From NCBI RefSeq assembly GCF_026262505.1, contig NC_067205.1:4340001-4404000 (forward strand): DNA of 64,000 bases, read 5' to 3'. The translations under genes and the position numbers were made by a program. The notes below the pieces were generated by a model that saw only the letters and a list, made by a program, of their open reading frames with translations, was not told the origin of the DNA and did no database searches. Origin of the DNA: Trichomonas vaginalis G3 (taxonomy: Eukaryota > Parabasalia > Trichomonadida > Trichomonadidae). Positions 1,820 through 45,655 of the stretch are shown here, in pieces (the first letter of the stretch is position 1; the number at the start of each line of letters is the position of its first letter).

Positions 1820-1854
1820 CTTTTCTATCGGATAAAAAAATATTTTTTTTAAAT

Positions 1855-3086: not shown

Positions 3087-3116
3087 TTTTATAAAAATAA
3101 AAAAAATATTATTTTT
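3087..3116 (-). promoter_or_regulatory. Maverick AT-rich start motif upstream of helicase
   Basis: Read on the minus strand, a run of the form TATTTTTTTTATTTTTATA sits just before the helicase ATG. Near-identical motifs precede at least seven other element genes. Candidate element-specific promoter; no experimental support. Confidence 0.5.
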
Positions 3117-3913: not shown

Positions 3914-3917
3914 TTAC

Positions 3918-4497: not shown

Positions 4498-4515
4498 TTT
4501 ACTTAGAATAAAAAG

Positions 4516-6426: not shown

Positions 6427-6427
6427 T

Positions 6428-6634: not shown

Positions 6635-6651
6635 CTCAGGTAACCTATATC

Positions 6652-8551: not shown

Positions 8552-8557
8552 AATGTC

Positions 8558-9106: not shown

Positions 9107-9144
9107 ATATGTCTTCAGGGCTTTTTGTTTTATCTCTTCATCTT

Positions 9145-9681
9145 TCAGTATTTATATTGAGTAGTATGGTTTTTCAAATTTATGACATCTTGTTCCATTT
9201 TTGCTACTTCTGCTGCTTTTTCTGACACTTTTTTCGCATATTCCTCTGTACTTAGTTCTTTCAGTTGTTCTTCTTTCTTCTTTTTCTCTACGTTTAACTC
9301 ATTGAGTTTCTTTGTGTGTCTGTCATATTCTAGTTTCTTTTCGTTTTCACTTATTTGCTTCTGTATGTCTATGTTTGACTTTTTGACATCTGTTATTTGA
9401 TTTTTGAGTGAACTCAAATTCATTTGACTTTGAGGGTTATAAGCTGTTCCGTCTGCAGCTCCACCATAGCCTGCCATTTTCGCTAAAAGTGCCGCTCTTA
9501 AACCTCCACTCTGTGCACCAACAACTCGGTTTAAAAGCATAGGATTGCTTGACATTTGTTGCAACATAGTGGGGTCATTCAGCATTTGTTGTTGCAACTG
9601 TTGTTGTGGTGTCAGTTTTACTATTGGATGTTTCAATGCTCTCTTCCTCTTACGTATATTCTTACGTAGCTTACGTGGCAT
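9145..9681 (-). CDS. Basic N-terminus plus coiled-coil Maverick protein, 178 residues
   Basis: Start MPRKLRKNIRKRKRALKH gives a strongly basic first 20 residues, as in small viral DNA-condensing proteins. Residues 25-80 are Q/M/G/A rich (QQQLQQQMLNDP, then AALLAKMAGYGGAADG), and residues 95-165 form a coiled coil. It is the first gene of the minus-strand virion block, starting about 270 bases from the divergent 528-residue gene. A core or minor capsid role is inferred. A degraded copy is at about 23345-23690 in B. Confidence 0.6.
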   Translation of the reverse strand: MPRKLRKNIRKRKRALKHPIVKLTPQQQLQQQMLNDPTMLQQMSSNPMLLNRVVGAQSGGLRAALLAKMAGYGGAADGTAYNPQSQMNLSSLKNQITDVKKSNIDIQKQISENEKKLEYDRHTKKLNELNVEKKKKEEQLKELSTEEYAKKVSEKAAEVAKMEQDVINLKNHTTQYKY

Positions 9682-9749
9682 TTTAAGTGAAGTTAAAAAG
9701 CGGTTTTTGACAGATGTTTATATGACACTTTTTGTTCAGCACAAAAAAC

Positions 9750-9948
9750 TACTCGGTCAACGGCGATGACTCTCAAAAACCGTTGTGCAAAAAGTTTTAC
9801 CGTTGGACAAAAAAGCATATATAGAAAACAAAAAACGTTTATAGTTCATTCAATATTTGAGATGGAACGGTTTTCCAACGGTAACTATTAAATAAAATAA
9901 AAAAATAGAGGGGGTTACCGTTGACGAAAACGGTTCATCTCAAACTTT
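9750..9948. promoter_or_regulatory. Divergent promoter region with clustered Myb-type sites and an inverted repeat
   Basis: Seven close matches to CAACGG/CCGTTG or AACGGT occur in 190 bases between the divergent genes at 9681 and 9952. Two of them sit in imperfect inverted arms (about 9857-9888 and 9914-9945, each containing TTGAGATG and AACGGTAAC) around an A/T core. YAACGG is the classic Myb recognition sequence, and trichomonads have many Myb proteins. A regulatory or origin role is inference. Confidence 0.45.
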
Positions 9949-9951
9949 TCT

Positions 9952-11538
9952 ATGAGTGGTCCGAAAAAAACAGTTTATTTTTGTCTAATGGAAGGAAGAA
10001 AAAGTGTCGCAAACAATTCGTCGACTACCTCTGCAGTTAAAGTTCCTACAACTTATGTCTCACCATTCTCAAAACCCTTACAACCTCCTATAATACCAAA
10101 GCAACTTCCTCATACAATTGCAAACAATTCGTCGACTACCTCTGCAGTTAAAGTTCCTACAACTTATGTCTCACCATTCTCAAAACCCTTACAACCTCCT
10201 ATAATACCAAAGCAACTTCCTCATACAATTGCAAACAATTCGTCGACTACCTCTGCAGTTAAAGTTCCTACAACTTATGTCTCACCATTCTCAAAACCCT
10301 TACAACCTCCTATAATACCAAAGCAACTTCCTCATACAATTGCAAACAAATTGTCCAACAATTCAAGACATTCTACTCAAGAAAATACCATACAAACAAA
10401 CGAAACAACAGATACAGTTGTACCAGACACAACAGGACAAGTTTTACAGTCTTCTCCAATTGCAAACCAATTGTCCAACAATTCAAGACAATCTACTCAA
10501 GAAAATACCATACAAACAAACGAAACAACAGATACAGTTGTACCAGACACAACAGGACAAGTTTTACAGTCTTCTCCAATTGCAAACCAATTGTCCAACA
10601 ATTCAAGACAATCTACTCAAGAAAATACCATACAAACAAACGAAACAACAGAGGAACAACCAAGCGCGTCATCGATGACGACAAGGTCCCAGATGAGATA
10701 CCTCGCGTTCGCGAAGCAATTTCAATCAGGAGATACAGAAAATACAGAAGAAAACACTACCATACCTGAACGTGTTCGCAGGCAATATGCTAAAAAAAGA
10801 CTTCAACTCCTTGAAAAACTCAAAAACCAATGGGGAATTCAAGACGACACCGATTATTCGGAAGTGTTTCAGTCTGTTATGGATAGTTTGCAACCAGTTG
10901 AAAATGAAGTTAAAGACCCAGGTGTTCTCGTGGACTTGTTTGTTCAATACTTGCCTGTTACAGCAAACCTAATTGCACTACAAGCCATCGACCAATTTAT
11001 TAGACTTTTCCCCAAAAATATGCAAACTTATTTGCGAAATGTGAAAATTGCTGAGTATGTCAGCATATATCCCAATACCTACAACTATCTCGAAGAATTG
11101 GATGAGTATGGGCAAAGGTCCTTTTACGTATACTTTTTTACCAAACCAGGACAGTCAAAACGGTTATATTGTATACAACCTTTACCAGAATTTCAAGACA
11201 ATTTCCATGTCATATCCACTATAGCGTTAGATACACCAGAAAGAGTTCCATACGGTGGCAAAGTTAGTATTTCAAGCTTCCCGAAAGCTACCAAAGGACA
11301 TCCTATAAAATTGGCAGAATTCACTAATTCAAATTGCCAATTCAAACAGGATGTTGAGTTTGTATTCTTACACGATACCACATTCATAATACAGACACCT
11401 CCAGATGGACTCTACAAAGTATTTATAGCTGGACACGTAGCACCAGATGACGAAGAAGAAGTCGAAGAAATCCTCACCTCAGAGAGCGAAGAAGAAGAAA
11501 ATTTCCAAGACATTCAAGATTCAGAATATACCGAATAA
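9952..11538 (+). CDS. Unrecognised 528-residue repeat-bearing Maverick A gene
   Basis: A fully open gene next to the terminus of A, with no counterpart in B. It starts MSGPKKTVYFCLMEG. Residues 20-130 hold three near-identical 37-residue proline/serine/threonine units, then two and a half 40-residue asparagine/threonine-rich units. After a TRSQMRYLAFAKQF junction comes a folded-looking domain of about 270 residues (helical VLVDLFVQYLPVTANL, then strands such as RSFYVYFFTKPGQ and YGGKVSISSFPK), ending in a very acidic tail. There is no membrane segment or signal peptide. The intact frame and perfect DNA repeats suggest recent expansion under coding constraint. Function unknown; a terminus-proximal accessory gene or fibre-like protein are guesses. 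Confidence 0.6.
   Translation: MSGPKKTVYFCLMEGRKSVANNSSTTSAVKVPTTYVSPFSKPLQPPIIPKQLPHTIANNSSTTSAVKVPTTYVSPFSKPLQPPIIPKQLPHTIANNSSTTSAVKVPTTYVSPFSKPLQPPIIPKQLPHTIANKLSNNSRHSTQENTIQTNETTDTVVPDTTGQVLQSSPIANQLSNNSRQSTQENTIQTNETTDTVVPDTTGQVLQSSPIANQLSNNSRQSTQENTIQTNETTEEQPSASSMTTRSQMRYLAFAKQFQSGDTENTEENTTIPERVRRQYAKKRLQLLEKLKNQWGIQDDTDYSEVFQSVMDSLQPVENEVKDPGVLVDLFVQYLPVTANLIALQAIDQFIRLFPKNMQTYLRNVKIAEYVSIYPNTYNYLEELDEYGQRSFYVYFFTKPGQSKRLYCIQPLPEFQDNFHVISTIALDTPERVPYGGKVSISSFPKATKGHPIKLAEFTNSNCQFKQDVEFVFLHDTTFIIQTPPDGLYKVFIAGHVAPDDEEEVEEILTSESEEEENFQDIQDSEYTE
10009..10650 (+). repeat. In-frame 111-base x3 and 120-base x2.5 coding repeats
   Basis: Units start at 10009, 10120 and 10231 (111 bases each) and at 10342, 10462 and 10582 (120 bases). 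Copies are almost identical at DNA level, and the lengths are multiples of three, so the frame is kept. Confidence 0.95.
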
Positions 11539-11600
11539 AAACTTCATTTATACTAAACATCTTCAGGGCTAGAGGGCACGAAGTGCCTGGAAGCCCCACT

Positions 11601-11631
<31 letters not shown>
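11539..11631. repeat. Terminal inverted repeat end of element A
   Basis: Contains ACTTCATTTATACTAAACATC, a perfectly stacked hairpin at 11566-11597 (GGGCT/AGCCC outer, GGCAC/GTGCC inner arms) and a 28-base T tract. The same order occurs at 45567-45655, and in reverse complement at 21501-21590. Confidence 0.9.
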
Positions 11632-21500: not shown

Positions 21501-21665
21501 AAAAAAAAAAAAAAAAAAAAAGGCAGTGGGGTTCCAGGCAACTTCGTGCCTTCTAGCCCTGATGTGATGTTTTAGTATAAATGAAGTTTTTATTGGAAAA
21601 TTGTTAGTCTTCTGGGTCGAAAAATTATAATATGTGTCTGCTTTTTCACAAATTTTATGTTTCAA
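21501..21665. repeat. Left terminal inverted repeat of element B
   Basis: Reverse complement of the right end: A tract, GTGGGG..TTCCAGGC hairpin, TTAGTATAAATGAAG, then TTTTTCACAAATT. It differs from the right end by several indels, consistent with the noisy sequence that follows. Confidence 0.85.
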
Positions 21666-21679
21666 TGTTTTGTTAAGAC

Positions 21680-22265
21680 TCTTCGTAAATGTTTTGTCAG
21701 ACTTTTCGTATAATGTTTGTCAAGACTTCTTGTAGTATGTTCTTGTACAAGACTTCTTCGTAAATGTTTTGTCCAGACTTCTCGTAAATGTTTTGTCAAG
21801 AACTTCTTCGTAAATGTTTTGTCAAGACTTCTCGTAAGTTATTGGGTCAAGACTCTTCGTAAAGTTTTTAAAGACTTCTTGTAAATGTTTGTCCAAGACT
21901 TCTTCGTACTGTTTTGGTCAAACATCGAACGTAAACTGTTTGTCAAGATTCTTCGTAAATGTTTTGTCAGACCTCTTTACATGTTTTTGTCAGTGTTTCA
22001 TGTAATGTCTTTGTCAAGACTTCTCGTAATGTTTTCGTGAAGACTTCTTCGTATAATGTTTTGTCAAGACCTTTCCTTTAAAATGTTTTGGTCAGACTTC
22101 TTCGAAATGCTTTTGTCAAGACTTCTTCGTAAATGTTTTGTCAAGAACTTCTTCGTAAAATGTTTTTGCAAGACTTCTTCGAATGTTTGTCAAGACTTCT
22201 TCGTACAATGTTTTTGTCAAGACTTATTCGGTAAATGTTTTGTCAAGAACTTCTTCGTAAATCAG
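21680..22265. repeat. Tandem 25-base satellite, about 20 units, very uneven
   Basis: Unit of the form CTTCTTCGTAAATGTTTTGTC plus AAGA. Almost every unit has its own indel. The same unit occurs 3-4 times cleanly at 35702-35790 and once or twice at 45393-45515, so it is an element-specific satellite expanded at the left end. Confidence 0.8.
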
Positions 22266-22299
22266 ACAAAATAATGTTTAGGTGCAAGAGTGAGATTTC

Positions 22300-26141: not shown

Positions 26142-26349
26142 ATGGGCGACCAGAGCCAAAAGGCAAAAAGGACATGGGAAATTTGCAACATACTAGATGA
26201 ACATAATGCAAAGATGCAACAACTTCAAGCAGAGGGCAATGAAGGAAAAAGAAGAGTTAAAAACTCAGTCAGGAAGAAAGTAAAGCTTGGTCGGAGTGGG
26301 TTCTATTATGACATATAAATCCAACTATTCTATATTTTTACTCATATGA
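26142..26349 (+). pseudogene. Small basic Maverick protein (one extra base)
   Basis: Same gene as 6428-6634 in A, with one extra base in the GGTCGGAGTGG segment (about 26290). The length of 208 bases instead of 207 confirms it. The start MGDQSQKAKRTWEICN is identical. The capsid ATG follows one base after the stop. Confidence 0.5.
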
Positions 26350-26350
26350 A

Positions 26351-27958
26351 ATGTACGCCGCTCAGAATATAACGCCAACAGTTTTGGATGCCATGAATGG
26401 AAATGTTTCCGAATGGTATAACGAATGCGACAATGCCATTAGAAGGTCAGAAATAGTTCCTGGAACTTACGAATATACAACTGCTGTTTCTTATGGAAAC
26501 GTAGGTGAGTTTGGAGAAGGTTCTTCAACAACAGTAGATATTGCTTGCGACAGGTTTCATATAATTTCTATTGACAACTCTTTCTTATACGTGGAACAAG
26601 ACATTGAAATAAAACCTTCTGCCAAGTTGTCTGACAAGAAAGGCTGCAATGGAATTTTCTATGTCGGATACCAATATGCTCCAGAAGTTTTCATGGGATA
26701 TAAGATATATTCTAACTCTGACTTAGTTCAAACAGTAACATGGGCAAACTATGAATGGTTCGCTTTGAGAAACTCAGTACAACCACAAGCTAGAGAACAA
26801 ACAGACCAGTATGCAACTATTGAGAAAATAAGAAGACTTGACCCTAACGTTCCAGGAGTTTATGTTAACCTTTCTGGACAAACTGCAGCAGCAGTAACCA
26901 AAGTAAAACTGAAACTTAGAGTTCCTTTGTCATCTTTCCTCATCTTCAGGTTTTTAAGATACTTGCCAAACTGGGCAGGAAAAATTTCTATCGAACTTAC
27001 TCCAAGCAAAAATAACTTAGTCATTGCACCAACACAAGACCCATTCACTCTTACAGACGTAAAGGGAGCAAATCAAACGTCATTCGCCGAATTTTGCAAA
27101 GACAAAGTTGACTTAGACTTTGGTTTCTCAAACCTCAACACTGAAGTAAACTACTACTTCAATGCTGCTGGAACTGCTTGGGACCCAGTTAAGTTCACAT
27201 GCGAAAAGTTTGAATGCAAGAGAATAGAAAGCAGACTTGCAGTCTATATGTTGGACCCAGATATTTCAAATGCTTTAGCTGCCAAATATATTGCAGTTCC
27301 ACTTATGTTCCCTATACACCAAATATCTGTCAAAGACTTTGCAGGTGAAGTTGGAAACCAAAGTGCTGACCCAGGTGCAAGAACAGATATTGCTTTAACA
27401 ACTGCAATGAAACATGCAGATACTATGTTTGTACTGTTCAGACGAACTATAAATGACTATTCTTGCTTCTACAACCCTGGTATTAAATACCATATAAACA
27501 TAGATGGCAAATACTATCCAAGAGAAGAATATTCTACAGTTGAGGATATGAGGTCATACAACTTGACATTAGATGCTATGAACTTTAACAACAACTTCAC
27601 AACAACCATTAACCCTGAAATGCAAAGTTCTATTATGCCATATGTGAAAGTATGGACTCATACAGGAGGTCAAAAAACTCAATATACAAATGGAGACCGT
27701 TCAAACTTTTGGCTTGGCATTCCATTTGCTGACTCAGAAGACTTTATGGGTGGTATTTCAACTGTTGGTACAGTTCAAATACAATATACTGGTGACAGAG
27801 ACGGTCCAGATGAACTGAGAGCAAAGAAGTTTACAAAACCAATAGCACTTTTCACGGAAGATGCTCTTTTGAAAATTCGTTCGATGAAACCTGCTGGGGC
27901 TCCTCAGATTGGCATAACGACAGCTTCCATCGAGCAGATTTTGGCAGCAGGTCAGTAA
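26351..27958 (+). CDS. MCP: Major capsid protein, double jelly-roll type, intact
   Basis: 535 residues, one uninterrupted frame from MYAAQNITPTVLDAMNG to IEQILAAGQ. Length, strand-rich sequence and position in the virion block fit the Maverick/Polinton major capsid protein, whose two fused jelly rolls build the icosahedral shell. Visible landmarks are an N-terminal strand region (GTYEYTTAVSYGNVGEFGEG), a central turn-rich segment (SKNNLVIAPTQDPFTLTDV), and a second half (YIAVPLMFPIHQISVKDF; FVLFRRTINDYSCFYNPG). There is no signal peptide or membrane segment. Its last 107 bases overlap an antisense gene. Identification is by family resemblance; a structure prediction would test it. Confidence 0.85.
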   Translation: MYAAQNITPTVLDAMNGNVSEWYNECDNAIRRSEIVPGTYEYTTAVSYGNVGEFGEGSSTTVDIACDRFHIISIDNSFLYVEQDIEIKPSAKLSDKKGCNGIFYVGYQYAPEVFMGYKIYSNSDLVQTVTWANYEWFALRNSVQPQAREQTDQYATIEKIRRLDPNVPGVYVNLSGQTAAAVTKVKLKLRVPLSSFLIFRFLRYLPNWAGKISIELTPSKNNLVIAPTQDPFTLTDVKGANQTSFAEFCKDKVDLDFGFSNLNTEVNYYFNAAGTAWDPVKFTCEKFECKRIESRLAVYMLDPDISNALAAKYIAVPLMFPIHQISVKDFAGEVGNQSADPGARTDIALTTAMKHADTMFVLFRRTINDYSCFYNPGIKYHINIDGKYYPREEYSTVEDMRSYNLTLDAMNFNNNFTTTINPEMQSSIMPYVKVWTHTGGQKTQYTNGDRSNFWLGIPFADSEDFMGGISTVGTVQIQYTGDRDGPDELRAKKFTKPIALFTEDALLKIRSMKPAGAPQIGITTASIEQILAAGQ

Positions 27959-28271
27959 GTTGTTCTTGAACTGACTTCTCTCCGTCAAATATTGACAGTA
28001 CGCCAGTTTTGATATAATATTGTATTATAAACTTACCTTTAGAAATATCGGTCAGTTTTGTTGTTATATTTTTGTCTGCTTCAAGAACTTTCACCATTTC
28101 AGTTATACCAACTTTCTTTGCTTTATGAAAATATTTTGGTTCAGCAAAGACTGCTATTCTATAACATTTTCCATTGTTTGTATAAAGAACTATTCTGTCA
28201 ATGAACTTGTATTGTTTGTGTGTGTAAACTTTGTTTTGCTTCAATTCGAAGAGATACTCAAATACGTCCAT
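27852..28271 (-). CDS. Maverick protein, 139 residues, antisense-overlapping MCP
   Basis: Intact in B. Starts MDVFEYLFELKQNKVYTHKQ; a beta-rich first half (RIVLYTNNGKCYRIAVFAEP) is followed by a helical, serine-rich C-terminus. The last 36 codons lie antisense to the capsid 3' end, an arrangement also present in A, so the overlap is ancestral. The start is divergent from the 101-residue gene at 28290 with only 18 bases between them, implying a shared promoter. Function unrecognised. Confidence 0.6.
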   Translation of the reverse strand: MDVFEYLFELKQNKVYTHKQYKFIDRIVLYTNNGKCYRIAVFAEPKYFHKAKKVGITEMVKVLEADKNITTKLTDISKGKFIIQYYIKTGVLSIFDGEKSVQEQLTDLLPKSARWKLSLCQSEEPQQVSSNEFSKEHLP

Positions 28272-28289
28272 CTTTTTATTCTAAGTAAA

Positions 28290-28595
28290 ATGTCATTTCC
28301 GAAAAATAGAAGCGTAAGTGTTTCAAAAGGTTTAATGGCGGTGGCAGATGTGAAGTTAAATTCACCAACTCAAACAAACAGTCAAAGTGTTGTTGTCAAT
28401 GTCAAAGAAAGAGATGTTGAAGTGGGGAAACCATACGAAGACGAAGATGGTATAACAATAGTTCCTGTAAAAGAACAACCAACATATCCTGAAGTTAGCA
28501 GAGACTTAAGTTCTGTTGCAGATATTCGAAACGACTACCAACAACTTAAAGACAAACTTAAAACTCAGGAGAAGATTTGTCAGCTTTGGGTATAA
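28290..28595 (+). CDS. Maverick conserved protein, 101 residues
   Basis: Starts MSFPKNRSVSVSKGLMAVAD. The middle is acidic and strand-like (YEDEDGITIVPVKEQPTYPE) and the C-terminus helical (DYQQLKDKLKTQEKICQLW). I chose the ATG at 28290 rather than an upstream in-frame start, because A has the same ATG with a stop-prone upstream region. Its stop overlaps the next ATG by one base (TAATG). Function unknown. Confidence 0.6.
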   Translation: MSFPKNRSVSVSKGLMAVADVKLNSPTQTNSQSVVVNVKERDVEVGKPYEDEDGITIVPVKEQPTYPEVSRDLSSVADIRNDYQQLKDKLKTQEKICQLWV

Positions 28596-28869
28596 TGTTA
28601 AACTTGGTCGAACACAACCCTGTAAAAGTGAACTCATATGTCATTGCACCTCATGAATTTTGAAAGAACTATTGAAACTTTTGACAGAGGCAGACGATAT
28701 AAACATCAAAGAAATAGAACCCGACGTTAGTTGCTGTGGTGTTTCATATAATGTCATTGACAAGATATACGTTATGAAAGGAGGTGAAACGTTGAACTTA
28801 AAATATAGTTTCCCAGACGTCATAAAAATATTTGACGACCACAACATTTCATTAAAATTTACTTGCTAA
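28595..28869 (+). pseudogene. Maverick 91-residue protein (one base lost)
   Basis: Counterpart of the intact A gene 3918-4193. It is 275 bases against 276, with one base missing near 28660 after the HEF codons. The downstream frame (KELLKLLTEADDINIKEIEP) is intact to the stop at 28869. Confidence 0.55.
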
Positions 28870-28873
28870 GTAA

Positions 28874-29687
28874 ATGGCAGAAGACATAGTGGTTTATACT
28901 ATTACGACTAAAAACCCTGAGTCATATAATTCTATAACAACAAACTTACAAAGTCCTCAAGGACGATATTGTAAACTAACCTTAAACACAATGACGACTA
29001 AAGCCTGTTTTGCTCTTTTGACACCAGAAGACTTTATTGTTGTGAATGGCAAAAAATACTCCTTTGAAGATACTTACTCAGATATACCACCAACAGGTTT
29101 TGTTGACTTATTTAATACTTTAAGGACGGATGTAACATGTGCTGCAACTAGAGCAGGTTTCATTATGTTTGGATGTCCGACTGAGTTTACTATAAACGAT
29201 ATGAGCTATAATACAAAACTTATATCTGGTTTTTACTACCAACAGTTTCCTATAACAGGAAAAGGTGTCATACAAGGTCTATGTTCCATTGACTTTAAGT
29301 ACACCTATTTTATATATTGTTTCAAACTTAGGTTCAAAGTGCTATTCGAATGTCGACAGAAACTACTATGACCAAAAGATACTCATGCGTATAAACAACA
29401 CTTTCTCTGCTGGTTTGCCTATTGTTCATTCGAATGCAGAGTTTTCAGCTTTAGTAAACTCAAACACTTTAGCAAACATAAACTTAACCTTAGTTGACGC
29501 AAACTTTGTTCCTGTAAAACTTTTATGTCCTATGTATTTGTCAATGACGGCAGAAAGTTTCGAATTGGAAGATGCAACTGGTGAAAGTATTGTATTACAA
29601 GAACAACTTCAACAACAAATAGCTCAAGAACAACTTCAACAACAAATAGCTCAAGAACAACAAATGCAACAAATAGCTCAAGAATAA
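28874..29687 (+). pseudogene. Candidate minor capsid (penton-like) protein, one frameshift
   Basis: The first 135 codons (MAEDIVVYTITTKNPESYNS to KGVIQG) are open, then a small indel at about 29277-29285 shifts the frame. The remainder (PLTLSTPILYIVSNLGSK onward) continues to 29687. The glutamine-rich tail holds extra QLQQQIAQE units compared with A. A has its break at a different place, so the two copies are complementary. The role is inferred from size and location. Confidence 0.45.
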
Positions 29688-29711
29688 AAAAAATATTTTT
29701 TTTTATTTGAA

Positions 29712-29800
29712 ATGTACGCTGAGTTTTGTTGGAGAAGACCGTCAGACAACATGTTTGTTATGATGAGAAGTAAAACATTGCATGAAATAAAAACATTTTT
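29712..29800 (+). pseudogene. 5' fragment of the HNH endonuclease gene
   Basis: Starts MYAEFCWRRPSD, matching the first codons and the upstream AT-rich motif of the HNH genes at 29832 and 39378, then diverges. One of several HNH gene scraps in B. Confidence 0.5.
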
Positions 29801-29831
29801 TTCAAAAAAAATATTTTTTATTTTATTTGAA
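29801..29831 (+). promoter_or_regulatory. Maverick AT-rich start motif before HNH gene
   Basis: AAAAAATATTTTTTATTTTA followed by TTTGAA and the ATG at 29832. The same arrangement precedes 39378 and 29712. Confidence 0.5.
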
Positions 29832-30414
29832 ATGTACGCTGAGTCTGTCGGAAAAGACTGTTGGAAAACTTGTTTGTTAGATGAGAAATATGAAATTCAC
29901 TGTTGTGAGTCATTCGAAGTCAGAAACAAAAAGACAAAAAGAGTTTTAAGCGAATGGGAGCAAAATAACGGATATGCTAGGATGAGGATTGGTGGAAAAC
30001 ACTATTTTAAACATGTTGTCATTGCAACTCATTTTATACCGAACCCTAACAATCTACCCTTTGTAGACCATATAAACCATATAAGAAACGACAATAGACT
30101 TGAAAATTTACGCTGGGTCACTTGTTTCTGAAAACAGTAAGAACAGAGGCAAAATTAGAGATATTGTATTCGAATTTGTCGACGAACTAGAAGATGAAAC
30201 AATTGAAATTACAGACTATGGCAAGCATGCGTTTGAGTTTTACTACTATAGCGAAGAACAAGACTCTTTCTACTTTTATACCGGCGTAAACTATAGAAAA
30301 TTACAAGTATGTTTTACTAATGGCTATGCTTATGTAAACGCTAGAGATACAGATGGAAAAAACGTTAAAATACTTCTTAACAAATTCAAGAAGCTATATG
30401 GCATACCATTTTAA
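29832..30414 (+). pseudogene. HNH homing-type endonuclease, copy 1 (frameshifted)
   Basis: NUMOD4-type start (CLLDEKYEIHCCESFEVRNK) followed by an HNH core (VDHINHIRNDNRLENLRWVT) at about residues 80-100, then a 90-residue C-terminal domain. One extra base at about 30122 moves the C-terminal half into the next frame; the intact paralogue at 38794-39378 shows the joint. HNH homing enzymes cut DNA and spread genes by repair. It occupies the place held by the SF3 helicase in A. Confidence 0.8.
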
Positions 30415-30455
30415 AACGTTTTTAAAAAAAAATATTTTTTTATCCGATAGAAAAG

Positions 30456-30876
30456 ATGACGAAATATATTTCAGTCAACAAATATATGTCAGGACTTAAA
30501 GAAGAACTAGACCCATTCATATATTTGAATGTTTACTTTCTACCATTTTGAAAGTCTACATTTGACAAAGTTTGGAACATCGAACCAGTTAAGTTTGCTA
30601 TTGTGACTAAAAATGGTGCGAAATTTGAAGACTTAGACATAGAAGGTTTGTTAGCAGTCAAAGAAAATTTTGACAGAAGGTTCTCAAACCTTAAAGAAGG
30701 CAAAGCATACAAACTTGTTATACCTTATGAACCAAAAGAAAGCAGACGACTATGAATATTATGAGTCTAAGATAGTTGAAGTTCAAGGTAAATTGGGTAA
30801 AAAGATTTTAGAGTCTAAGCCAGTGTTTGCTCCTAAAGAGGAAGAGAACATTGACATTGACCCAGAAATGTTCTAA
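30456..30876 (+). pseudogene. Maverick small conserved protein, about 140 residues (frameshifted)
   Basis: Counterpart of 1403-1819 in A. ATG at 30456 (MTKYISVNKYMS). Its 421 bases do not divide by three, and frame changes are seen near 30535 and 30685. The C-terminus (SKPVFAPKEEENIDIDPEMF) is open. An AT-rich start motif lies at 30429-30441. Confidence 0.5.
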
Positions 30877-30892
30877 AAATAAAATTTTATTT

Positions 30893-31348
30893 TTACATGT
30901 CATATCTCACCTTCTCTGGAACTGGTTCAGGTTCTTTCTTCTCTTCTTCTACTTTCTTTTCTTTCTTTTCTCTCTTCTTCTTCTTTTCTGGTGGAGTTAT
31001 GTCAAATTTCTCAGAACCATATTTATGTAAAAGTTCTTTGTCCTTTAATAGCTCTTCTATTCTGTTTCCTATTTCATCTTCAAGAACAGCGCATGTGTCT
31101 TCTTTGCATTCTAAGAACTTTTGTTGGACTTCATCTCTCCAAGAGGCGTCATCTCTGTCAACAAGTCTGTCATTGACAAACTTAAAGACTTCTCTGCCTA
31201 ATGTTTTTATGGTTCTTGTCATATTCCAGAAACAGAACTTTAGAACAAATTCACCTTTCTTGTTTACACTATGTAAGATTTTATGGTCGACAGATGTTTT
31301 GCTGTCAAAAAGTTTGTCTCGAATATAGATAGCGAAATCGCTAGACAT
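30893..31348 (-). CDS. Maverick protein with charged tail, 151 residues
   Basis: Intact in B. Starts MSSDFAIYIRDKLFDSKT; residues 20-110 are mixed alpha/beta with a CREATE-free helical centre (WRDEVQQKFLECKEDTCAVL). The last 40 residues are a lysine then glutamate-rich tail with prolines (EEEKKEPEPVPEK). I use the ATG at 31348 because A shares it. It is divergent from the ATPase gene with 36 bases between starts, suggesting shared control. No family recognised. Confidence 0.6.
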   Translation of the reverse strand: MSSDFAIYIRDKLFDSKTSVDHKILHSVNKKGEFVLKFCFWNMTRTIKTLGREVFKFVNDRLVDRDDASWRDEVQQKFLECKEDTCAVLEDEIGNRIEELLKDKELLHKYGSEKFDITPPEKKKKREKKEKKVEEEKKEPEPVPEKVRYDM

Positions 31349-31384
31349 TTTCAAAAAGATAAAAATTTTAATTTTTCTAAAAAT

Positions 31385-32261
31385 ATGTTAGAAAAAAAGT
31401 TTGCTGACATTGACAAGAAATTTGAGAATGTTTTAAACAAGAACAAGAGGAAGTTAGAAAATGCTCAGATAAAACCCATACATGACAAGTTCTTATTTGC
31501 TCAGAATGGTATAACAGGTCTAATTGCACCACCTGGGTCGGGTAAGACTTTCACTTATCTTTAAAATAATGGCTGCACAACAACAAGAACTAGATGAGAA
31601 GAACCCATTCTATGAGTTAGTTGTCATTTGTAGTACTTCTGGTCAATTTGACCAAACCGTCAATTCGTTCAAAGATATTATAAAGAAGTCTAAGTTAGTA
31701 TGTATAAAAGACTCTGAGTTGTTAGATTGGATAAAGAAGTACCAAAGAAGAGTTTTGAAGTACAATGCTATAAATGAGTATGTCAATTCGAAGTTTAAAG
31801 ACCCAAATGAGGAAATGCAGAGAATATTAGAGAAGAAACACTTCAGAAACAAACAGAAAGAGATAGAATACATTTCGAAGAAATTGCAATCTTACGATTG
31901 GAAGACATACCCTCATAGATGTCTTCTTATCTTAGATGACTTTGCTTCTCATCCTTTGTTAAAGAACAGAGAACAAGACATGTGTCGAATTCTTAAGAAG
32001 CTCAGACACTTTAACATCTCAGTTGTCATTTGTGTACAGACAGCCAAGAGTTTAAGTAAGGATGTAAAGAGAATACTTACTGACATTATACTTTTCCCTG
32101 GATTGTCCGAAGACGATTTCATGGAACTTATGAAAGAGTCCATGGCAGGTAAGTTTGACAGACATGAACTATGGGAGAAGTACAAAGTCATACAAGACCC
32201 TCATACTTCTTTCAGAATTCATATCTACGCGAACAAAGTTCAAATTGTAAAAAGTCAATAA
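31385..32261 (+). pseudogene. A32/FtsK-type packaging ATPase (broken after Walker A)
   Basis: ATG at 31385 (MLEKKFADIDKKFENVLNK). Walker A APPGSGKT is followed after five codons by a stop at about 31562, caused by a net four-base insertion relative to A (TCTTTAAAATAATGG against TCTTAAAATGG). The rest, including Walker B LLILDDFA, is open to 32261. A's break is in the N-terminal leader instead. This enzyme would drive DNA packaging; neither copy in the window reads through as given. Confidence 0.85.
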
Positions 32262-32344
32262 AAATAAAGAGTTTGAGTCTTAGTCTGTTGTGGTGCTGGG
32301 GCTGTCGGTTCTTCTGGCTTTGGAAGACATTCAGGAAGAGGAAC

Positions 32345-34310: not shown

Positions 34311-35618
34311 ATGTATTTTTCAGCAACTTCGTCAAATAATTTTATAGCAACTCTATCTCATCTACTTTCAAACGTTTCTTTACCTTTTATGGGAGCACCA
34401 TACATTTTCTCAAACTTTTCGAGTAGTTCTGTTTCAGCAGCTCTCATATCGTTAACTAACACAACCTTGACTCTATTGACTTGTACTGTCATATCTTAGA
34501 GTTATATTATATGTCCTTCCTATCTTATATCTTTTTGTGTTGAAGTCCTTCGGTTTCTGAACGATGTAAAGTAAGCCTTCACTGCAACGTTCTGAGTCGA
34601 ATAAACCATATGTTATGAAGTTATATCCAACAACTGGGTCAATCCATACAAAACTATTGGTATAAGACTTTTGTCTATAAGATATGCTGTAGTTCCATAA
34701 GAATCTTACCGATATCATAAGCTCAGGATTTCTTGTCAAAATTTTTCTGAGTAGAAGCAATTCTAACCCAGTCCTTTGCTTTCTTTCCAGATGGAGATAA
34801 AATGTCTGACAAAGAATATTTGTTGTATTTCTTGAGTATCTTACGTTAAATCACCTATTCTAACCACTTTGGTGTCATTGTCTATCTTTCCAACTGTTTC
34901 AAACTCATTGTTTGACATTTCTGTCTTTAAGTCTGCATAGTCGTTTCTCATACGTTCTATCTCTTTGACGGAGTAGTTATATTTCCTCATTGCTGCTTTA
35001 CATTTAGAACATTGTGGGTTCAACTTTGCGTTATATTCTGAAACCTTACCTGCTAAAACAACCAAGGCGTCCAATGGTTTTCTTTAAATCTGACAGTTGT
35101 GGTTTTATCTGTTCATTCCATATCTTACCTCTTCTATCTTTATCTCTTATCTGCCATACACATTTTGCAGCTAACGAAACAAAGTTGTCGTAGGTCTTAA
35201 ATTCTTCAGATTTATATATGTCAGAAACATTCTTATATACCATGTCGCAATCTTTGTCCATAACCTTATGGTTGCAATGAAATCCAAGAAACTCATAGTT
35301 TACCTTTCGTATGAACTTCTTTATTTCTACTGAGTCAGTTGCTTTGACTTCTATTTCATCGAATTCTGGAATAGTAAGCTTTTGTTGTTGGATTTCAGGA
35401 AGTTTAGGTAGATGGTCAATAATATCCTGCATTTCATAAAGATACTGTTCATTTGTTTCATCTTTCGCACTACAGTCCAAAGTACTTGTTAAAAGTTCTT
35501 GCTTTATCTTCTGGATTTCTGTCTCAAAAGTATATGAAGAAGGAATGAAGCTTTTCATCTCTACTAACATTGAAGTTGGGTTCATGACTAACGAGTTTGG
35601 TGCTGTTGTTGCTAACAT
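34311..35618 (-). pseudogene. KilA-N plus T5orf172-like protein with long N-terminal domain, several frameshifts
   Basis: Starts MLATTAPNSLVMNPTSM at 35618 after an AT-rich motif. Segments in order: helical N-terminal region with CSKCKAAMRKYNYS, then a KilA-N-like block (NKYSLSDILSPSGKKAKDWV, RIASTQKILTRNPEL, TNSFVWIDPVVGY), then a T5orf172/GIY-YIG-like domain (GLLYIVQKPKDFNTKRYKIG, then ELLEKFEKMYG). Frame changes are near 35075, 34845 and 34478, so it may be one broken gene or two adjacent ones. Such KilA-N/T5orf172 fusions are typical of large DNA viruses. Confidence 0.55.
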
Positions 35619-35652
35619 GTTCTTACAATAAAAATAAAAAAATATTTTTTTA
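35619..35652 (-). promoter_or_regulatory. Maverick AT-rich start motif before 35618
   Basis: Minus strand: AAAATATTTTTTTATTTTTA then TTGTAAGAAC and ATG. The gene at 36555 has the identical TTGTAAGAAC spacer. Confidence 0.5.
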
Positions 35653-35701
35653 AAAAAACCAACTTTATTTTTTATTTCGGGAAAACTCATGAGGTTAGAA
35701 A

Positions 35702-35860
35702 ACATGTACGAAGAAGTCTTGACAAAACATGTACGAAGAAGTCTTGACAAAACATGTACGAAGAAGTCTTGACAAAACATTTACGATGAAATCATGAAAA
35801 TTCAAGAGGGTAGAAAAGAGGGTAGAAGACAGGTTATATCTAACCTTCTACCCTAAAATA
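35702..35860. repeat. Clean 25-base satellite (x3-4) and foldback unit copy 2
   Basis: ACATGTACGAAGAAGTCTTG plus ACAAA in tandem at 35702-35790, followed by the GGGTAGAA foldback at 35810-35860. The same pairing is at 45393-45472 near the right terminus. Confidence 0.8.
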
Positions 35861-35894: not shown

Positions 35895-36555
35895 TTACTC
35901 ACAATATTTTTGTACAAAACGACCCCAAGCTTTTAACTTCTTTTCTGCAGCTTCTAATGCTATCTTAGCGAGTTCATATTCTCTAAATTCTCTCTTTAAA
36001 TCTTCTTGTTCCCATTGGTCTAGTTCGTATGGAGAATCTCTATAACCAGAACATATCTCACGTTCATGTTCTATTTGTTTTTCATGCATTTTTCTAACTT
36101 CTTCTTCAAACAAAGGTTTTGCATTCTCTACTGTATCTTCAAGTTCTTCTTCATCTAACTTCTCATGAACTTTCTTGTCTATGGAGTCCATAATTTTTCC
36201 AACTGCTATACAATATTTTGGAGAAGCCCACATTGCAATATAGTTTACGAGTCTTGGGTCTACATACATTCCTCTAACCTGTTTGATTTCATCGGGAATT
36301 CCTGCATTAACATTGTATAAAAAGCAACCCGCGGAATTCCGCGGGGTGGTATTCTTCACAAAATGCCTTAAAATACTCTTCCCAGGACTTATTTTCCAAC
36401 AACCTTCTAAAGTCTTTCCTAAACTGCTGACATATCTTTGTTGCATTTATATAACCATCCTTGTCTCTACGTAAGACTTCAATACCGTTATAGGTGCCTT
36501 TTGTGAATGTTTCGCCATTAGATTTGTTCGTGAACGTTTTTGCTTCGACTGACAT
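35895..36555 (-). pseudogene. KilA-N DNA-binding protein, split at a palindrome
   Basis: The first frame (36307-36555) gives MSVEAKTFTNKSNGETFTKG and the KilA-N core (DKDGYINATKICQQFRKDFR). The second (35895-36446) gives RGMYVDPRLVNYIAMWASPK and a long acidic coiled-coil C-terminus. The frame change lies at or beside an 18-base perfect palindrome, CCCGCGGAATTCCGCGGG, at about 36330-36348. KilA-N proteins are viral DNA-binding factors. The two halves together have normal family order, so a single indel separates them. Confidence 0.65.
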
Positions 36556-38793: not shown

Positions 38794-39378
38794 TTAAAAT
38801 GGTATGCCATATAGCTTCTTGAATTTGTTAAGAAGTATTCGAACGCATTTTCCATCTGTATCTCTAGCGTTTACATAAGCATAGCCCGTCTTAGTAAAAT
38901 ATACTTGTAATTTTCTATAGTTTACGCCGGTATAAAAGTAGAAAGAGTCTTGTTCTTCGCTATAGTAGTAAAACTCAAGCGTATGCTTGCCATAGTCTGT
39001 AATTTCAATTGTTTCATCTTCTAGTTCGTCGACAAATTCGAATACAATATCTCGAAATTTGCTTTTGTTCTTATTGTTTTCAGAACGAGTGACCCAACGC
39101 AAGTTCTCAAGTCTATTGTCGTTTCTTATACGGTTTATATGGTCTACAAAAGGTAAATTGTTAGGGTTCGGTATAAAATGAGTTGCAATGACAATATGTT
39201 TAAAATAGTGTTTTCCACTCATATCCATAGTAGTATATCCGTCATTTCGCTCACATTCGCTTAAAACTCTTTTTGTCTTTTTGTTTCTGACTTCAAATGA
39301 CTCACAACAGTGAATTTCATATTTCTCATCTAACAAACAAGTTTCCCAACGGTCTTCTCCAACAAACTCAGCGTACAT
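38794..39378 (-). CDS. HNH homing-type endonuclease, intact, 194 residues
   Basis: Starts MYAEFVGEDRWETCLLDEKY. A NUMOD4-like N-terminal segment is followed by the HNH core: histidines in GKHYFKHIVIATHF, then VDHINRIRNDNRLENLRWVT, about residues 60-105. The C-terminal 90 residues include DIVFEFVDELEDETIEITDY and a strand-rich domain. Such enzymes make site-specific cuts that promote their own copying. B also holds a broken full copy (29832-30414) and at least three scraps, showing activity or past recombination inside this element. Confidence 0.85.
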   Translation of the reverse strand: MYAEFVGEDRWETCLLDEKYEIHCCESFEVRNKKTKRVLSECERNDGYTTMDMSGKHYFKHIVIATHFIPNPNNLPFVDHINRIRNDNRLENLRWVTRSENNKNKSKFRDIVFEFVDELEDETIEITDYGKHTLEFYYYSEEQDSFYFYTGVNYRKLQVYFTKTGYAYVNARDTDGKCVRILLNKFKKLYGIPF

Positions 39379-40731: not shown

Positions 40732-41691
40732 ATGACGAATCCAAACAAGGACCCCTATGTTTCTAAAGCGACAAAGAAAGCACTCATGGTAAAAATCTTT
40801 AGTTCAACACCAAATGCTTGGTTTATGGATATCTTGGAAAACATTCCGAGGTATAGAGAAGATGGACCTCCATACTGGCTAATATTTGTCGGTCAAAACA
40901 CAAGATACTGTGAAGCCATACCATTACAGTCCAAAAATATTTTAGATATCTTAGCAGCTTTGACAATATTTGTTGACAAATACCATCCAACAAAACTGAC
41001 ATCTGACTGTGAAAGTTCTTTCAAATCAGATGATGTAAAAAACTATCTGCGTTCAAAAAATGTAAACCAATATTTCATTGTCGACCAAAACCATTCTGCT
41101 CTTGGTGTCATTGACAGTTGTATAAAAATCTTAAGAGACTTAAACCAACCACAAGGTGGTGAGGTAGATGAAATGTCATATGACGACAAATATAGACATT
41201 TCTCCATGGCAAAGATGAGACAAGTTTTAAATATTTACAATAGCCGTAAACAAAAAGGTTTGGGAAACCATTCCCCTGAAGAAATGAAAAACAACCCTGA
41301 CTTAGAGAAAGACTATATATTTAATAGTTTAGTCAAAAGAGACAAACAAGAAAGAATGCCAGGCTTCAAACTTAAGAAAGGTGACAAAGTAAAAATAGAA
41401 ATACCTAAACGCGACCCATATGAAAATACTATTGACTATGACAACAATGGGAACTCGACAGGTACTCACATTCGTGTTCGTAAAAATAGAAGAAAGTATA
41501 CAAGAGAATATTATGAAGTTTTAGGCAAACATGGCAAAATGTACAGACTGCAAGCAGAAGATAAAACTACTATTGTCAGACCTCGTTTCAAACTTGTCAA
41601 AGTTCAAGGTGGTATACTTTCAAAGACAGTTCCTAACAAATATAAGACAACTCCTGACGAATATGCTAAAGAAGTTGAAAATGACGACTAA
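40732..41691 (+). CDS. INT: Retroviral-type (RVE) integrase, 319 residues
   Basis: Maverick/Polinton c-integrase, which inserts the element into the host chromosome. The RNase H-like core is visible: first acidic residue in AWFMDILENI (about residue 33), second in KLTSDCESSFKS (about 100), and third position in SALGVIDSCIKIL (about 134), where an aspartate stands where many integrases have glutamate. The C-terminal third is basic with an SH3-like stretch (FKLKKGDKVKIEI; RPRFKLVKV). No zinc-binding HHCC domain or chromodomain is visible. Intact. Its stop overlaps the fibre gene stop by 4 bases (convergent genes). Confidence 0.9.
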   Translation: MTNPNKDPYVSKATKKALMVKIFSSTPNAWFMDILENIPRYREDGPPYWLIFVGQNTRYCEAIPLQSKNILDILAALTIFVDKYHPTKLTSDCESSFKSDDVKNYLRSKNVNQYFIVDQNHSALGVIDSCIKILRDLNQPQGGEVDEMSYDDKYRHFSMAKMRQVLNIYNSRKQKGLGNHSPEEMKNNPDLEKDYIFNSLVKRDKQERMPGFKLKKGDKVKIEIPKRDPYENTIDYDNNGNSTGTHIRVRKNRRKYTREYYEVLGKHGKMYRLQAEDKTTIVRPRFKLVKVQGGILSKTVPNKYKTTPDEYAKEVENDD

Positions 41692-42887
41692 GCATTTCTA
41701 TACCATGCGTAAACTGTCATGTAAGGTGGCATGTAGTCTTTACTTTGTCCCGTTGTTTGCGTATATCCCGAAACGCGATGTGTATGGCTTCCTCCTACCT
41801 CAGTGTTACTCCAGTAACAATTTATAGCAAACTTAACGTCCTCTTTAACATCATATCCTTTACCTTTTGTCATTCCTGACCAATCCCAAAATCTATGACT
41901 ATGCAAACCTGCTTCAGATGTACTTAAATTTATGTAGTGACTGTGCGCAGGTAAATTTGCACCTGAAATCGTTTTACTTCCACCTGTTTCCTTTGAAGAG
42001 TTTGCACAATACAAAAACCTGTCGACTATTTGAGTCCAAGTTCCAAAACCAAGTACTACTTCTGGTCTGGTAGAGTTCATTGACGTATAAATAGAACCTA
42101 TAGGATATAATGTTTGAAGTATTTCTGTCTTTAATGTTTGAAGCTCTGTTTTGTCTGCTTTTTTATATAACTTTTCTTCAAGTTCATTTACGTCAGAGAT
42201 GCTATGTCTATGATATTTTTGTGGGTATGTTCCTTCTGTCCATGTGAAAATATACTCTTTTGTTGCATCTACATATCCTTTTATCCATGTCGAGTCTGCT
42301 TTTGTATTCCTTAACTCTGTAACACCTTTCTCAAGCTCTTTCAACTGTTGTCCATCTTCCATTAAACCTCTGGTATGACTTGAAACCGTTTGTGCCAACA
42401 TATCTACAGTTTCTTTGTCAGCTTTAAGGTCTAAACATTCTGAAACCCACCCTGTATTGGCTTTACCTTCTAAAATCTTCGATGTCCGTTCATGGTACCA
42501 TTCAACCATTTTTTTAATTTCTTCATCTTTTTCATCCACATATTCCTTATCTGCCTTCTTCACTAACCCACTAGCCACATATGCTATTGCATCGTCTACA
42601 TACTCTTTGTCAGCTTTGTTGTCAATATCTGCCTTCAAAAGAAGTTCATCTATAGGTTTCTCGTTTAAAGTTCTTTTTGTTGGATTTATACAAACAGTAT
42701 GGTTCTTACTGTCTTGAAACAGAAACTCGTCTGTCAATGGGTTTATCGTCAGTTTTAAGTTTCCTTCTTTCAATGACTCAGATATCTTAGAATAGTTTGA
42801 AAAGTTTGTTGTGTTCTTATTTAGAGCTTGCAAAATGAGTTGTCGGTTGTGTTGTATTTCTCTCATAGACGCTGTTTCTTTCGACAT
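41688..42887 (-). CDS. Fibre-like protein with phage tail-collar/gp10-type C-terminus, 399 residues
   Basis: Residues 1-85 are an attachment-like head. Residues 85-250 contain four KADKEYVD/KADKETVD-type units and heptads, the trimeric-fibre style seen in phage long tail fibres. Residues 260-399 match the phage tail-collar / gp10-gp12 C-terminal pattern: YPIGSIYTSMNSTRP, FGTWTQIVDRFLYC, LPAHSH, GSHTHRVSG and the terminal YMPPYMTVYAWYR. The HxH motifs bind metal in phage relatives. In a Maverick this would be a receptor-binding spike. Intact, with start at 42887. The best explanation is capture from a bacteriophage or bacterial prophage; the family match is from memory of motifs and should be checked by structure search. 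Confidence 0.8.
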   Translation of the reverse strand: MSKETASMREIQHNRQLILQALNKNTTNFSNYSKISESLKEGNLKLTINPLTDEFLFQDSKNHTVCINPTKRTLNEKPIDELLLKADIDNKADKEYVDDAIAYVASGLVKKADKEYVDEKDEEIKKMVEWYHERTSKILEGKANTGWVSECLDLKADKETVDMLAQTVSSHTRGLMEDGQQLKELEKGVTELRNTKADSTWIKGYVDATKEYIFTWTEGTYPQKYHRHSISDVNELEEKLYKKADKTELQTLKTEILQTLYPIGSIYTSMNSTRPEVVLGFGTWTQIVDRFLYCANSSKETGGSKTISGANLPAHSHYINLSTSEAGLHSHRFWDWSGMTKGKGYDVKEDVKFAINCYWSNTEVGGSHTHRVSGYTQTTGQSKDYMPPYMTVYAWYRNA

Positions 42888-42905: not shown

Positions 42906-43752
42906 ATGCTTTCAATAGAAAAAGAAAATTCAAGAGTTGCTACAACTAAACCATTAGATGAACTTTTTACGAATGTCGGTCAAAAGTTTGAGACAGAGAC
43001 CGTAAAGCATGAAGGCTATCGTTTTGACTACCCACTAAGATGGTTAAGAGACCATCCGTCACAAAAGCTATTGGCTTTCGTAGAATGAAGTTCATTTCAG
43101 AAGCCATACATGGTTTCCCATTTACGGTCGCTTTTGAAGTTCGATACTATAACAAAGAAAAACGTACGTATGAGAAATTTGAACAGGGAAAACTTTTACA
43201 AGTGAATTTGCTTGTAAACTTAGAAACAACTCTTCAAGCTTTTCAAGAAAAAATAAACGATATCTATCTCGAATATGCAAAACAGTACAACATTGACGAA
43301 GGAGAGTACCATCTCGATATTATATATGACAGGAAAAATGCAACTGTTAAAATCAATAAAATAGAAGACCTTGGAGAAAACGTTTATATTTCTACAAAAT
43401 ATAACAACTTGGCATGGCATAGATTTATGAGGATGTTAAATCAGCCTGCATGGTATCCAGTACACCCGGACTATTATGAAGTCGAAAACCCTAATGGAAC
43501 ATATGAAAATGTTTTCGACTCAGATGCATTATAGTTCATGCTTCATTTTCTGGTGCACAAAACTCTTTTTTATGCTTGGCAAATGACTTTTACGAAAAAC
43601 CTACAAAGCTATATGAACCACCGAGTGGAAGTATTTCGGATTTTCAAGTATGGTTTACTACAGATGGAAGAAAGAGAATAATTCCATTATACCATGCGTT
43701 TTACTTAGAACTTAGTTTCATATACAACTACTATCGAACGGTAAAAATATGA
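42906..43752 (+). pseudogene. Maverick B paralogue pair, member 2 (two frameshifts)
   Basis: Starts MLSIEKENSRVATTKPLDEL and follows 37127-37987 domain by domain (YRFDYPLRWLRD; AIGFRRMKF; YENVFDSDA). Frames change at about 43050 and 43533, and the C-terminal third continues with internal stops near 43678-43745. Divergent from the fibre gene (18 bases between starts). It may be a degraded duplicate. Confidence 0.55.
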
Positions 43753-44403: not shown

Positions 44404-44535
44404 TTACGAGTACATATACTGAACATTTGCAGGCATTGGTTCATCTTCATATTCTCTATATCTTTCTGCCACGTCAAATAAGTAAATGACACAATGGAAA
44501 AAGCCTAAAACAAGTAGTCCTATTTCAAACCACAT
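44404..44535 (-). CDS. Single-pass membrane micro-protein, 43 residues
   Basis: Starts MWFEIGLLVLGFFHCVIYLF, one clear transmembrane helix, then a charged tail (AERYREYEDEPM). It overlaps the 3' end of the methyltransferase gene by 16 bases, so it is probably translated from the same transcript. Too short for gene finders; composition and placement support it. Confidence 0.5.
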   Translation of the reverse strand: MWFEIGLLVLGFFHCVIYLFDVAERYREYEDEPMPANVQYMYS

Positions 44536-45338
44536 TTACTTACCAATAAAATTTCTTTGTTATGACACTTTCTCCAGTTTATAGGACCTCTCTCATATTC
44601 TATCTTATCGTATCTAAAATCATAGTCATGTATGTCCTCTAACCATCTCATGACACTTTCCAAACCACTTTTATCGGATGTAAAGTAAAAGCATGGATGG
44701 TTATGTAAAACGTCTAAAGTTTCTAAAGAGTCTCTCAAAGTCCAGTCTACTTGGTATTGAAAATCCCATGTGTTATAGAACGGCGGGTCCACTATAAAGA
44801 AAACATTTTCCTTGTCTTTATATTTTTCATACAACTCTGTCCAATGACATCTCACAAACTCTATACCCTCAATATATTTTTCTATGTTCTCTTTGAAAAC
44901 ATTTGTATAGTTAAGATATAAAACTTTTGACATAAGTGTTTCAATGTCATGAACTCTTATAGCACCACTATATAATAGTCTAGCAGATATACTATCCCAG
45001 TCAATATACTCTGCCTTTTTCAAAACCTCTCTGACAGTATTTTTCTTATCTAATGGTATACGTTCCATCTTACCTATAGGTATCTTTTCTTTTAACGCTT
45101 TCAATATATTGTTTGTGTCTGGTATATGTTTGAGACGGTCCATATAGTTGTCGAAGTCATTGCATATAATCTTTGAGTCTGGGAATATTGTATGGCACAA
45201 ATGGGATATATAGAAACTTCCACCGAACAAATCTACAAATGTTAGACCATTCGGTAGTTTCTTAAGTTCTCTCAATAGAATATCTTTACATCTACTCTTA
45301 TTTCCAAAGAAGGGTAACGGTGGTTTTGTAAAATTCAT
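44520..45338 (-). CDS. D12-class N6-adenine DNA methyltransferase, 272 residues
   Basis: Dam/D12-type enzyme that methylates adenine N6 using S-adenosylmethionine. Motif X-like PLPFFGNKSRCKDIL is at residues 8-22, SAM-binding FVDLFGGSFYISH at 34-46, and catalytic DPPFY at about 184. The order (X-I-IV) is the D12 alpha class. Full length and intact, first gene inside the right terminus. N6-methyladenine has been reported in Trichomonas DNA, and Maverick-borne methyltransferases are a plausible source. In B it could mark element DNA for expression or protection. The function call is strong; the recognition sequence cannot be read. Confidence 0.9.
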   Translation of the reverse strand: MNFTKPPLPFFGNKSRCKDILLRELKKLPNGLTFVDLFGGSFYISHLCHTIFPDSKIICNDFDNYMDRLKHIPDTNNILKALKEKIPIGKMERIPLDKKNTVREVLKKAEYIDWDSISARLLYSGAIRVHDIETLMSKVLYLNYTNVFKENIEKYIEGIEFVRCHWTELYEKYKDKENVFFIVDPPFYNTWDFQYQVDWTLRDSLETLDVLHNHPCFYFTSDKSGLESVMRWLEDIHDYDFRYDKIEYERGPINWRKCHNKEILLVSKCGLK

Positions 45339-45392
45339 TTTATATATATAATAAAAATGTTTTTTCCTGAAAAGTGACAGAAAAGTGACAAA

Positions 45393-45515
45393 ACATGTAC
45401 GAAGAAGTCTTGAAAATTCAAGAGGGTAGAAAAGAGGTTAGAAAAGAGGTTATATCTAACCTTCTACCCTAAACATTATTTTTGTCTGATTTTACGAAGA
45501 AGTCTTGACAAAACA
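45393..45515. repeat. 25-base satellite units and foldback copy 3 next to right terminus
   Basis: ACATGTACGAAGAAGTCTTG units at 45393 and about 45490 bracket the GGGTAGAA-type foldback at 45420-45472, mirroring the expanded array inside the left terminus. Confidence 0.75.
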
Positions 45516-45625
45516 TGAAAACATATATAATTTGTGAAAAGCTCCTGGAAGACCCGTATATAAGAACTTCATTTATACTAAACATCTTCGGGGCTAGAGG
45601 GCACGAAGTGCCTGGAAGCCCCACT

Positions 45626-45655
<30 letters not shown>
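45516..45655. repeat. Right terminal inverted repeat of element B
   Basis: AATTTGTGAAAAG, ACTTCATTTATACTAAACATC, the hairpin at 45590-45623 and a 27-base T tract, matching the left end in reverse complement and A's end directly. Host sequence begins at about 45656 with AAAAATATC. Confidence 0.9.

Follow-up and report, generated by a model that had tools for sequence, protein, structure and literature searches.

Here we describe a gene from Trichomonas vaginalis G3 in which a bacteriophage-type tail tip is joined to a eukaryotic virus-like element. The gene lies in a 64,000-nucleotide stretch of the genome (NCBI RefSeq assembly GCF_026262505.1, contig NC_067205.1, positions 4,340,001 to 4,404,000; hereafter the window), within an element bounded by terminal inverted repeats. 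The gene is genuine and belongs to the regular gene set of a Polinton-like virus (PLV) lineage, and its product is most likely an attachment fibre. That it would serve as such in a PLV integrated in T. vaginalis in many copies we consider probable.

The protein can be divided into an N-terminal anchor (residues 1 to ~95), a repeat shaft (~96 to 245) and a gp10-type tip (~256 to 397). An intact frame of 399 residues had been proposed by an earlier examination of the DNA alone (the sequence-only reading), and translation bore out both the frame and every motif quoted from it: YPIGSIYTS, FGTWTQIVDRFL, LPAHSH, GSHTHR and MPPYMTVYAWYR in the tip region, and four KADK-type blocks in the shaft (KADKEYVD twice, KADKETVD and KADKTELQ once each). 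Residues 256 to 397 match the Pfam family Gp10_C (PF21939) with a score of 95.4 bits (cut-off 27; E 7.3e-27; profile positions 1-138 of 139). This similarity is far beyond chance. PHROG tail families match the protein at 2.4e-18 and 3.6e-15, while PF12789, the phage tail repeat family, falls below threshold in the window fibre (24 vs 27 bits) and is precomputed for many sister copies. The tip had been likened to the collar domains of both gp10 and gp12, of which only the gp10 part stood: the gp12-type Collar family (PF07484) is absent from the seven Pfam families listed for the fibre at E<=10, and because of this the tip is assigned to the gp10 type and a gp12-type identity was dropped.

The genome searched was the 180.85-Mb assembly. 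At least 197 fibre matches, spread over many contigs, were obtained, a lower bound on copy number as fibre scoring covered 104 of 6385 first-look candidates. A protein search returned 976 relatives at E<=1e-3, the best 120 of which all belong to T. vaginalis G3; many of the matches listed already bear the database names 'Baseplate structural protein', 'phage tail repeat-like family' or 'tail fiber protein, putative'. When 36 proteins were aligned, the anchor (absent in P0049) and the ends of the tip were near-invariant, and the shaft repeats varied in number and kind. Genomic context was taken from 30 fetched copies, the window's own and 29 others, chosen by best fibre score and hence close relatives with a bias toward intact genes. 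In all 30, the fibre gene stands tail-to-tail with an integrase gene (in the window their stops overlap by 4 bases), a 133-amino-acid (aa) gene lies beyond the integrase, and a DUF7777 gene lies on the other side. One relative (C3:23287000-23305000) carries, in order, a minor capsid candidate, a D5-like helicase (DUF5906 and Pox_D5), an A32 ATPase, KilA-N, T5orf172, DUF3839, KilA-N, DUF7777, two more genes, the 133-aa gene, integrase, fibre, DUF7777, a 120-aa gene and a methyltransferase-like gene. The window has a matching gene order from its 535-aa capsid candidate (26351) to its methyltransferase-like gene (45338), between the inverted repeats. Contamination or a chimeric insert, which the sequence-only reading had held out as a possible undoing of its claim, is ruled out by the many T. 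vaginalis copies with conserved neighbours and the same position in every copy examined. Some gp10-tipped T. vaginalis proteins (P0148, P0154, P0156 and others) carry the database name 'keratin-associated protein family', which looks like a misannotation.

The nature of the host element was also considered. The name Maverick, under which it had been introduced, holds in the broad sense of a eukaryotic integrating element with capsid-gene candidates. A Maverick in the strict sense it is not, because no PolB was found in the element. Two PolB pieces from the same genome gave no match at E<=1 in the window or in loci L031 to L034, and PolB elements do occur in the genome (91 of 2554 candidates scored). 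Among the marks of Mavericks/Polintons, an rve integrase match (0.8 bit under the cut-off) and terminal inverted repeats are present; the A32 packaging ATPase (30.1 bits vs 22.8) is a mark of PLVs. For the double jelly-roll major capsid protein and the minor capsid protein of PLVs there are candidates, picked out by size, gene order and resemblance to genes of a PolB Maverick. On C1, C2, C3, C5 and C6, with C4 and the small contigs left out of the comparison, none of 71 fibre places was less than 30 kb from any of 60 PolB places, both lists being partial, and this separation slightly favours an element that lacks PolB. The host element is placed in a PLV lineage, not among canonical Mavericks.

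A fibre with the same tip was also found in an element of the PolB type, represented here by the single locus C3:22127000-22147000 (L120, L121). This locus encodes a 570-aa protein that shares 23% identity with the window capsid candidate across 295 aa (E 1.5e-12) and a 280-aa minor capsid-like protein, 19 bases from which an 870-aa fibre starts on the opposite strand. This fibre matches Gp10_C at 1.6e-24. It was compared with P0054, a fibre with the window-type anchor used by its protein sequence alone, and identity was 84/90 in residues 621-720, 55/70 in 721-790 and 28/71 in 791-870; against the window fibre, the same three stretches gave 12/14, 56/70 and 28/71. Nothing in the 870-aa fibre significantly matches the window anchor (best E 0.12). 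Recombination of shaft and tip modules is a known pattern in phage tail fibres. The mosaic seen here is most readily explained by shafts and tips recombining beneath distinct anchors, and such modules appear to have passed between two or more element lineages living in the same host, each retaining its own anchor. A fuller picture, in which two Polinton-type virus lineages in one protist trade phage-derived shaft-and-tip modules and continue to pass from one trichomonad cell to another in particle form, is possible but doubtful. Elsewhere in L120, a zf-MIZ (SUMO-ligase-type) protein is encoded at 3591-4496, and positions 1-618, beside the PolB Maverick, look like the end of a D5-type element that bears the methyltransferase gene.

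Relatives of the tip are found in phages and metagenomes. At E<=0.01, the tip occurs in 338 of 50,697 phage records, with a best E of 6e-12 among the best 30 of the 338 (Lactobacillus delbrueckii phage antireceptors), and in tblastn with the whole fibre no phage record matched over at least 80% of its length. An IMG/VR scan with a single fibre protein gave no relative; with alignment A2, relatives were encoded in 463 of 532 candidate stretches, and 80 loci were kept. Identity across the tip is 30-40% for most of these relatives, reaching 51% over short stretches, and several of them are located in phage tail modules (10 genes from six loci scanned against PHROGs). The single gene scanned in each of L039 and L043 matched no PHROG family, and therefore a phage identity is demonstrated for some relatives rather than for all. 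When 22 proteins of the window element were compared with the 80 loci (E<=1e-3), only the fibre matched, plus the HNH protein in two loci, so IMG/VR yielded no recognisable Polinton-like element with a gp10-type tip. The window anchor (residues 1-100) was detected at E<=0.01 in 128 of 312 fetched proteins, comprising 118 of the best 120 T. vaginalis relatives and ten later matches, all from T. vaginalis (P0251 among them matches only weakly, in the repeats); it is missing from the metagenome proteins fetched.

A tree of the tip was built from 73 rows of our own choosing (30 of the 80 IMG/VR loci, three phage records, 28 metagenome proteins and 12 T. vaginalis rows), rooted by midpoint only and with bootstraps not settled. 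A single supported set (98/89), lying among metagenome and phage rows, brings together the 12 T. vaginalis rows and two metagenome rows. Three of the 33 viral rows (L040, L050, L065) lie on the T. vaginalis side of the midpoint, the nearest being L040, which has phage tail genes. Transfer of the tip from phage is the more economical reading; because of this rooting and these bootstraps, we only infer a phage-to-protist direction. One of the two metagenome rows in the T. vaginalis set, P0157, has a Trichomonas shaft by eye and starts with MCIRDR, which we take to be a sequencing-adapter artefact.

Selection on the gene was gauged from its substitutions. The frame is open from the start of the anchor through the end of the tip in 22 of the 30 copies. 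Among these, the ratio of nonsynonymous to synonymous polymorphism (pN/pS, with codon bootstrap ranges) is 0.30 (0.18-0.54) for the anchor, 0.58 (0.37-0.96) for the shaft and 0.59 (0.36-0.96) for the tip; the corresponding divergence ratios (dN/dS) for 28 copies, partial frames included, are 0.25, 0.63 and 0.66. The anchor is under constraint. A tip looser than the anchor is suggestive only, the bootstrap ranges overlapping. For the integrase, dN/dS is 0.26 (15 copies), and a frame of at least 250 aa with the usual start is found in only 16 of the 30 copies.

As an attachment fibre, three copies of the protein would twine together, the N-terminal anchor would plug into the capsid (penton), and the gp10-type tip would touch the trichomonad surface, letting particles enter new cells. 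Swapping of shaft and tip under fixed anchors may let element lineages change binding specificity, as phages do. Several points weigh against this reading. The gp10 protein of T4 is a baseplate structural protein, not a receptor binder. The major capsid candidate has no Pfam or PHROG match and nothing in the PDB below E 0.5; its relative in the PolB element is likewise without a Pfam, PHROG or meaningful PDB match. With its minor capsid and DUF7777 genes interrupted, the copy in the window may be dead. A full-length fibre model from 36 closely related copies was useless (predicted local distance difference test score, pLDDT, 32.6), and the tip-only model built in its place with 56 diverse rows has a mean pLDDT of 69.8 and is confident only in the first ~45 and last ~10 residues. 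Searched against the PDB, the tip gave no match at E 1e-3 or better. The fold match that the sequence-only reading had anticipated came out as partial, with 52-70 of 157 residues aligned to gp10 entries at template modelling scores of about 0.3; the best match, by sequence and by fold, is the T4 gp10 C-terminal domain (2fkk).

Both ends of the tip, the conserved part across the 56 rows, are also the best modelled, and this, together with the structural role of T4 gp10, would suit a module for trimerisation and capping rather than receptor binding; the protein would then belong to a capsid vertex or act in assembly, with recognition left to something else. The distal tip is, however, the most divergent part between the two element types (28/71, vs 84/90 in the shaft), and related phage proteins are annotated as antireceptors, so that we judge such a module unlikely. 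Even less credit is given to an element that has become a pure transposon and copies its fibre gene along as a relic. The broken genes in the window, the scarcity of long integrase frames and the shaft and tip ranges extending to 0.96 agree with this, but the anchor and integrase ratios speak against it, as do the 22 open copies, although picking by best score favours intact ones. Finally, T. vaginalis lives by adhesion, and the many fibre copies, most listed ones without internal stops, might suggest that the host has co-opted the protein as an adhesin, secreted or displayed on the parasite's surface. Inspection of the fibre by eye reveals neither a signal peptide nor a membrane segment, the integrase and DUF7777 neighbours are kept in every copy examined, and co-option is very improbable.

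The putative attachment fibre can be compared with known systems. It shares with the T4 gp10 C-terminal domain (2fkk; PF21939) the same profile at near full length. Unlike T4 gp10, the tip here ends a repeat-shaft fibre, the anchor turned up, within the set of fetched proteins, solely in those of T. vaginalis, and no phage tail genes were seen in the element. Phage antireceptor or fibre proteins that end tail modules (L. delbrueckii c5 and Ld3; IMG/VR L040 and L045) have the same tip at about 30-40% identity, but these proteins belong to tailed virions. The novelty implied by the sequence-only reading has to be reduced, since PLVs have been reported to use bacteriophage-like fibres, those of T. 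vaginalis included, with phage tail repeats and collagen (PMC12220804). The idea and the host are the same, and phage tail repeats also occur in the sister copies described here. The term 'gp10' is absent from the main text of that paper, and its accessible text gave no sign of a gp10-type tip, a fixed integrase neighbour or an anchor/tip mosaic. In the Organic Lake virophage, OLV18 and OLV19 are listed as 'Phage Tail Collar Domain' proteins, marked '(adsorption on virus host?)' (PMC3671162), placing a phage tail domain in a related small eukaryotic virus; it is Collar rather than Gp10_C, a distinction made by name only. The accessible text of PMC12695648 and PMC12802312 does not mention the fibre, and that of the former, on host N6-methyladenine, does not mention the methyltransferase-like gene. 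Among the literature titles listed, none was recognised as describing a gp10-type tip or an anchor/tip mosaic, supplements being outside this scope. Phage-like fibres as a kind are thus already known; what is new is the gp10-type tip, the fixed integrase neighbour and the apparent shaft/tip exchange between two element types.

Whether the huge number of Mavericks in T. vaginalis amounts to a burden of transposons or to a collection of viruses has been an open question. The species was once counted among Polintons without a detectable major capsid protein (MCP) (PMC7805220), and 4,841 MCPs were recently reported where no capsid genes had been found earlier (PMC10120064, in the accessible text). 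Viruses that need to find and enter new cells would be expected to have a fibre gene of this sort, conserved and under constraint, fixed in its position in the element and able to swap tips, and the fibre is a concrete protein to seek in particles. It is also a plain example of a tail domain of phage type employed by a eukaryotic virus-like element, and module trading, if true, would be a eukaryotic counterpart of phage host-range switching.

Table 1. Features of the element in the window (window coordinates).
Feature	Position	Strand	Remarks
Left terminal inverted repeat	21501..21593	+	89% to right end over 94 columns
Major capsid candidate, 535 aa	26351..27958	+	By size, place and 23% identity/295 aa (E 1.5e-12) to PolB Maverick protein
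Minor capsid candidate	28874..29687	+	Two open pieces; 28.8% over 125 aa to PolB-element protein, E 5e-8
A32-type packaging ATPase	31569..32261	+	Pox_A32 30.1 bits vs 22.8, scanned on window 31524-32261
DUF3839 protein	35046..35780	-	
KilA-N domain protein	35895..36446	-	
Second DUF7777 protein, 286 aa	37127..37987	-	
Small protein, 133 aa	40313..40714	-	Past integrase in 30/30 copies; no family above cut-off
Integrase, rve-type, 319 aa	40732..41691	+	PF00665 E 1.8e-7, positions 7-98/102, 31.8 bits, 0.8 bit under curated cut-off
Fibre gene, 399 aa + stop	41688..42887	-	Intact, no internal stop; anchor, repeat shaft, gp10-type tip
DUF7777 gene	43040..43534	+	Divergent from fibre gene; frame changes break window copy
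Conserved element protein, 120 aa	44018..44380	-	No family
DNA methyltransferase-like protein, 272 aa	44520..45338	-	Pfam MTS sub-threshold only; DPPF motif by eye
Right terminal inverted repeat	45560..45649	-	

Genes that are interrupted in the window are open in other copies: the fibre-adjoining DUF7777 gene is intact (282 aa) in L031 and L033, and the minor capsid candidate is open (262 aa) in L034. The 133-aa protein may resemble a minor virion protein. The methyltransferase-like gene is kept at element ends (window 44520-45338, L120 1-618). A second copy of the element lies in the window in the opposite orientation (18-11630 on the minus strand, against 21501-45649 on the plus strand). 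The two are ~92-100% alike in the matching blocks 18-6634 and 26142-32273; the minus-strand copy is cut by the window edge, and its D5 gene, at the window start, is split in two pieces. Minisatellites of ~25-bp units lie directly inside the terminal inverted repeats (21663-22274 and 45386-45510). An HNH endonuclease gene is present at 38794-39378, a place where L032 has one and L031 does not, and HNH-related sequence is found inverted at 29785-30320 in the plus-strand copy, past its minor capsid candidate (inverted repeats I7 and I12); this pair looks like a homing-type insertion.
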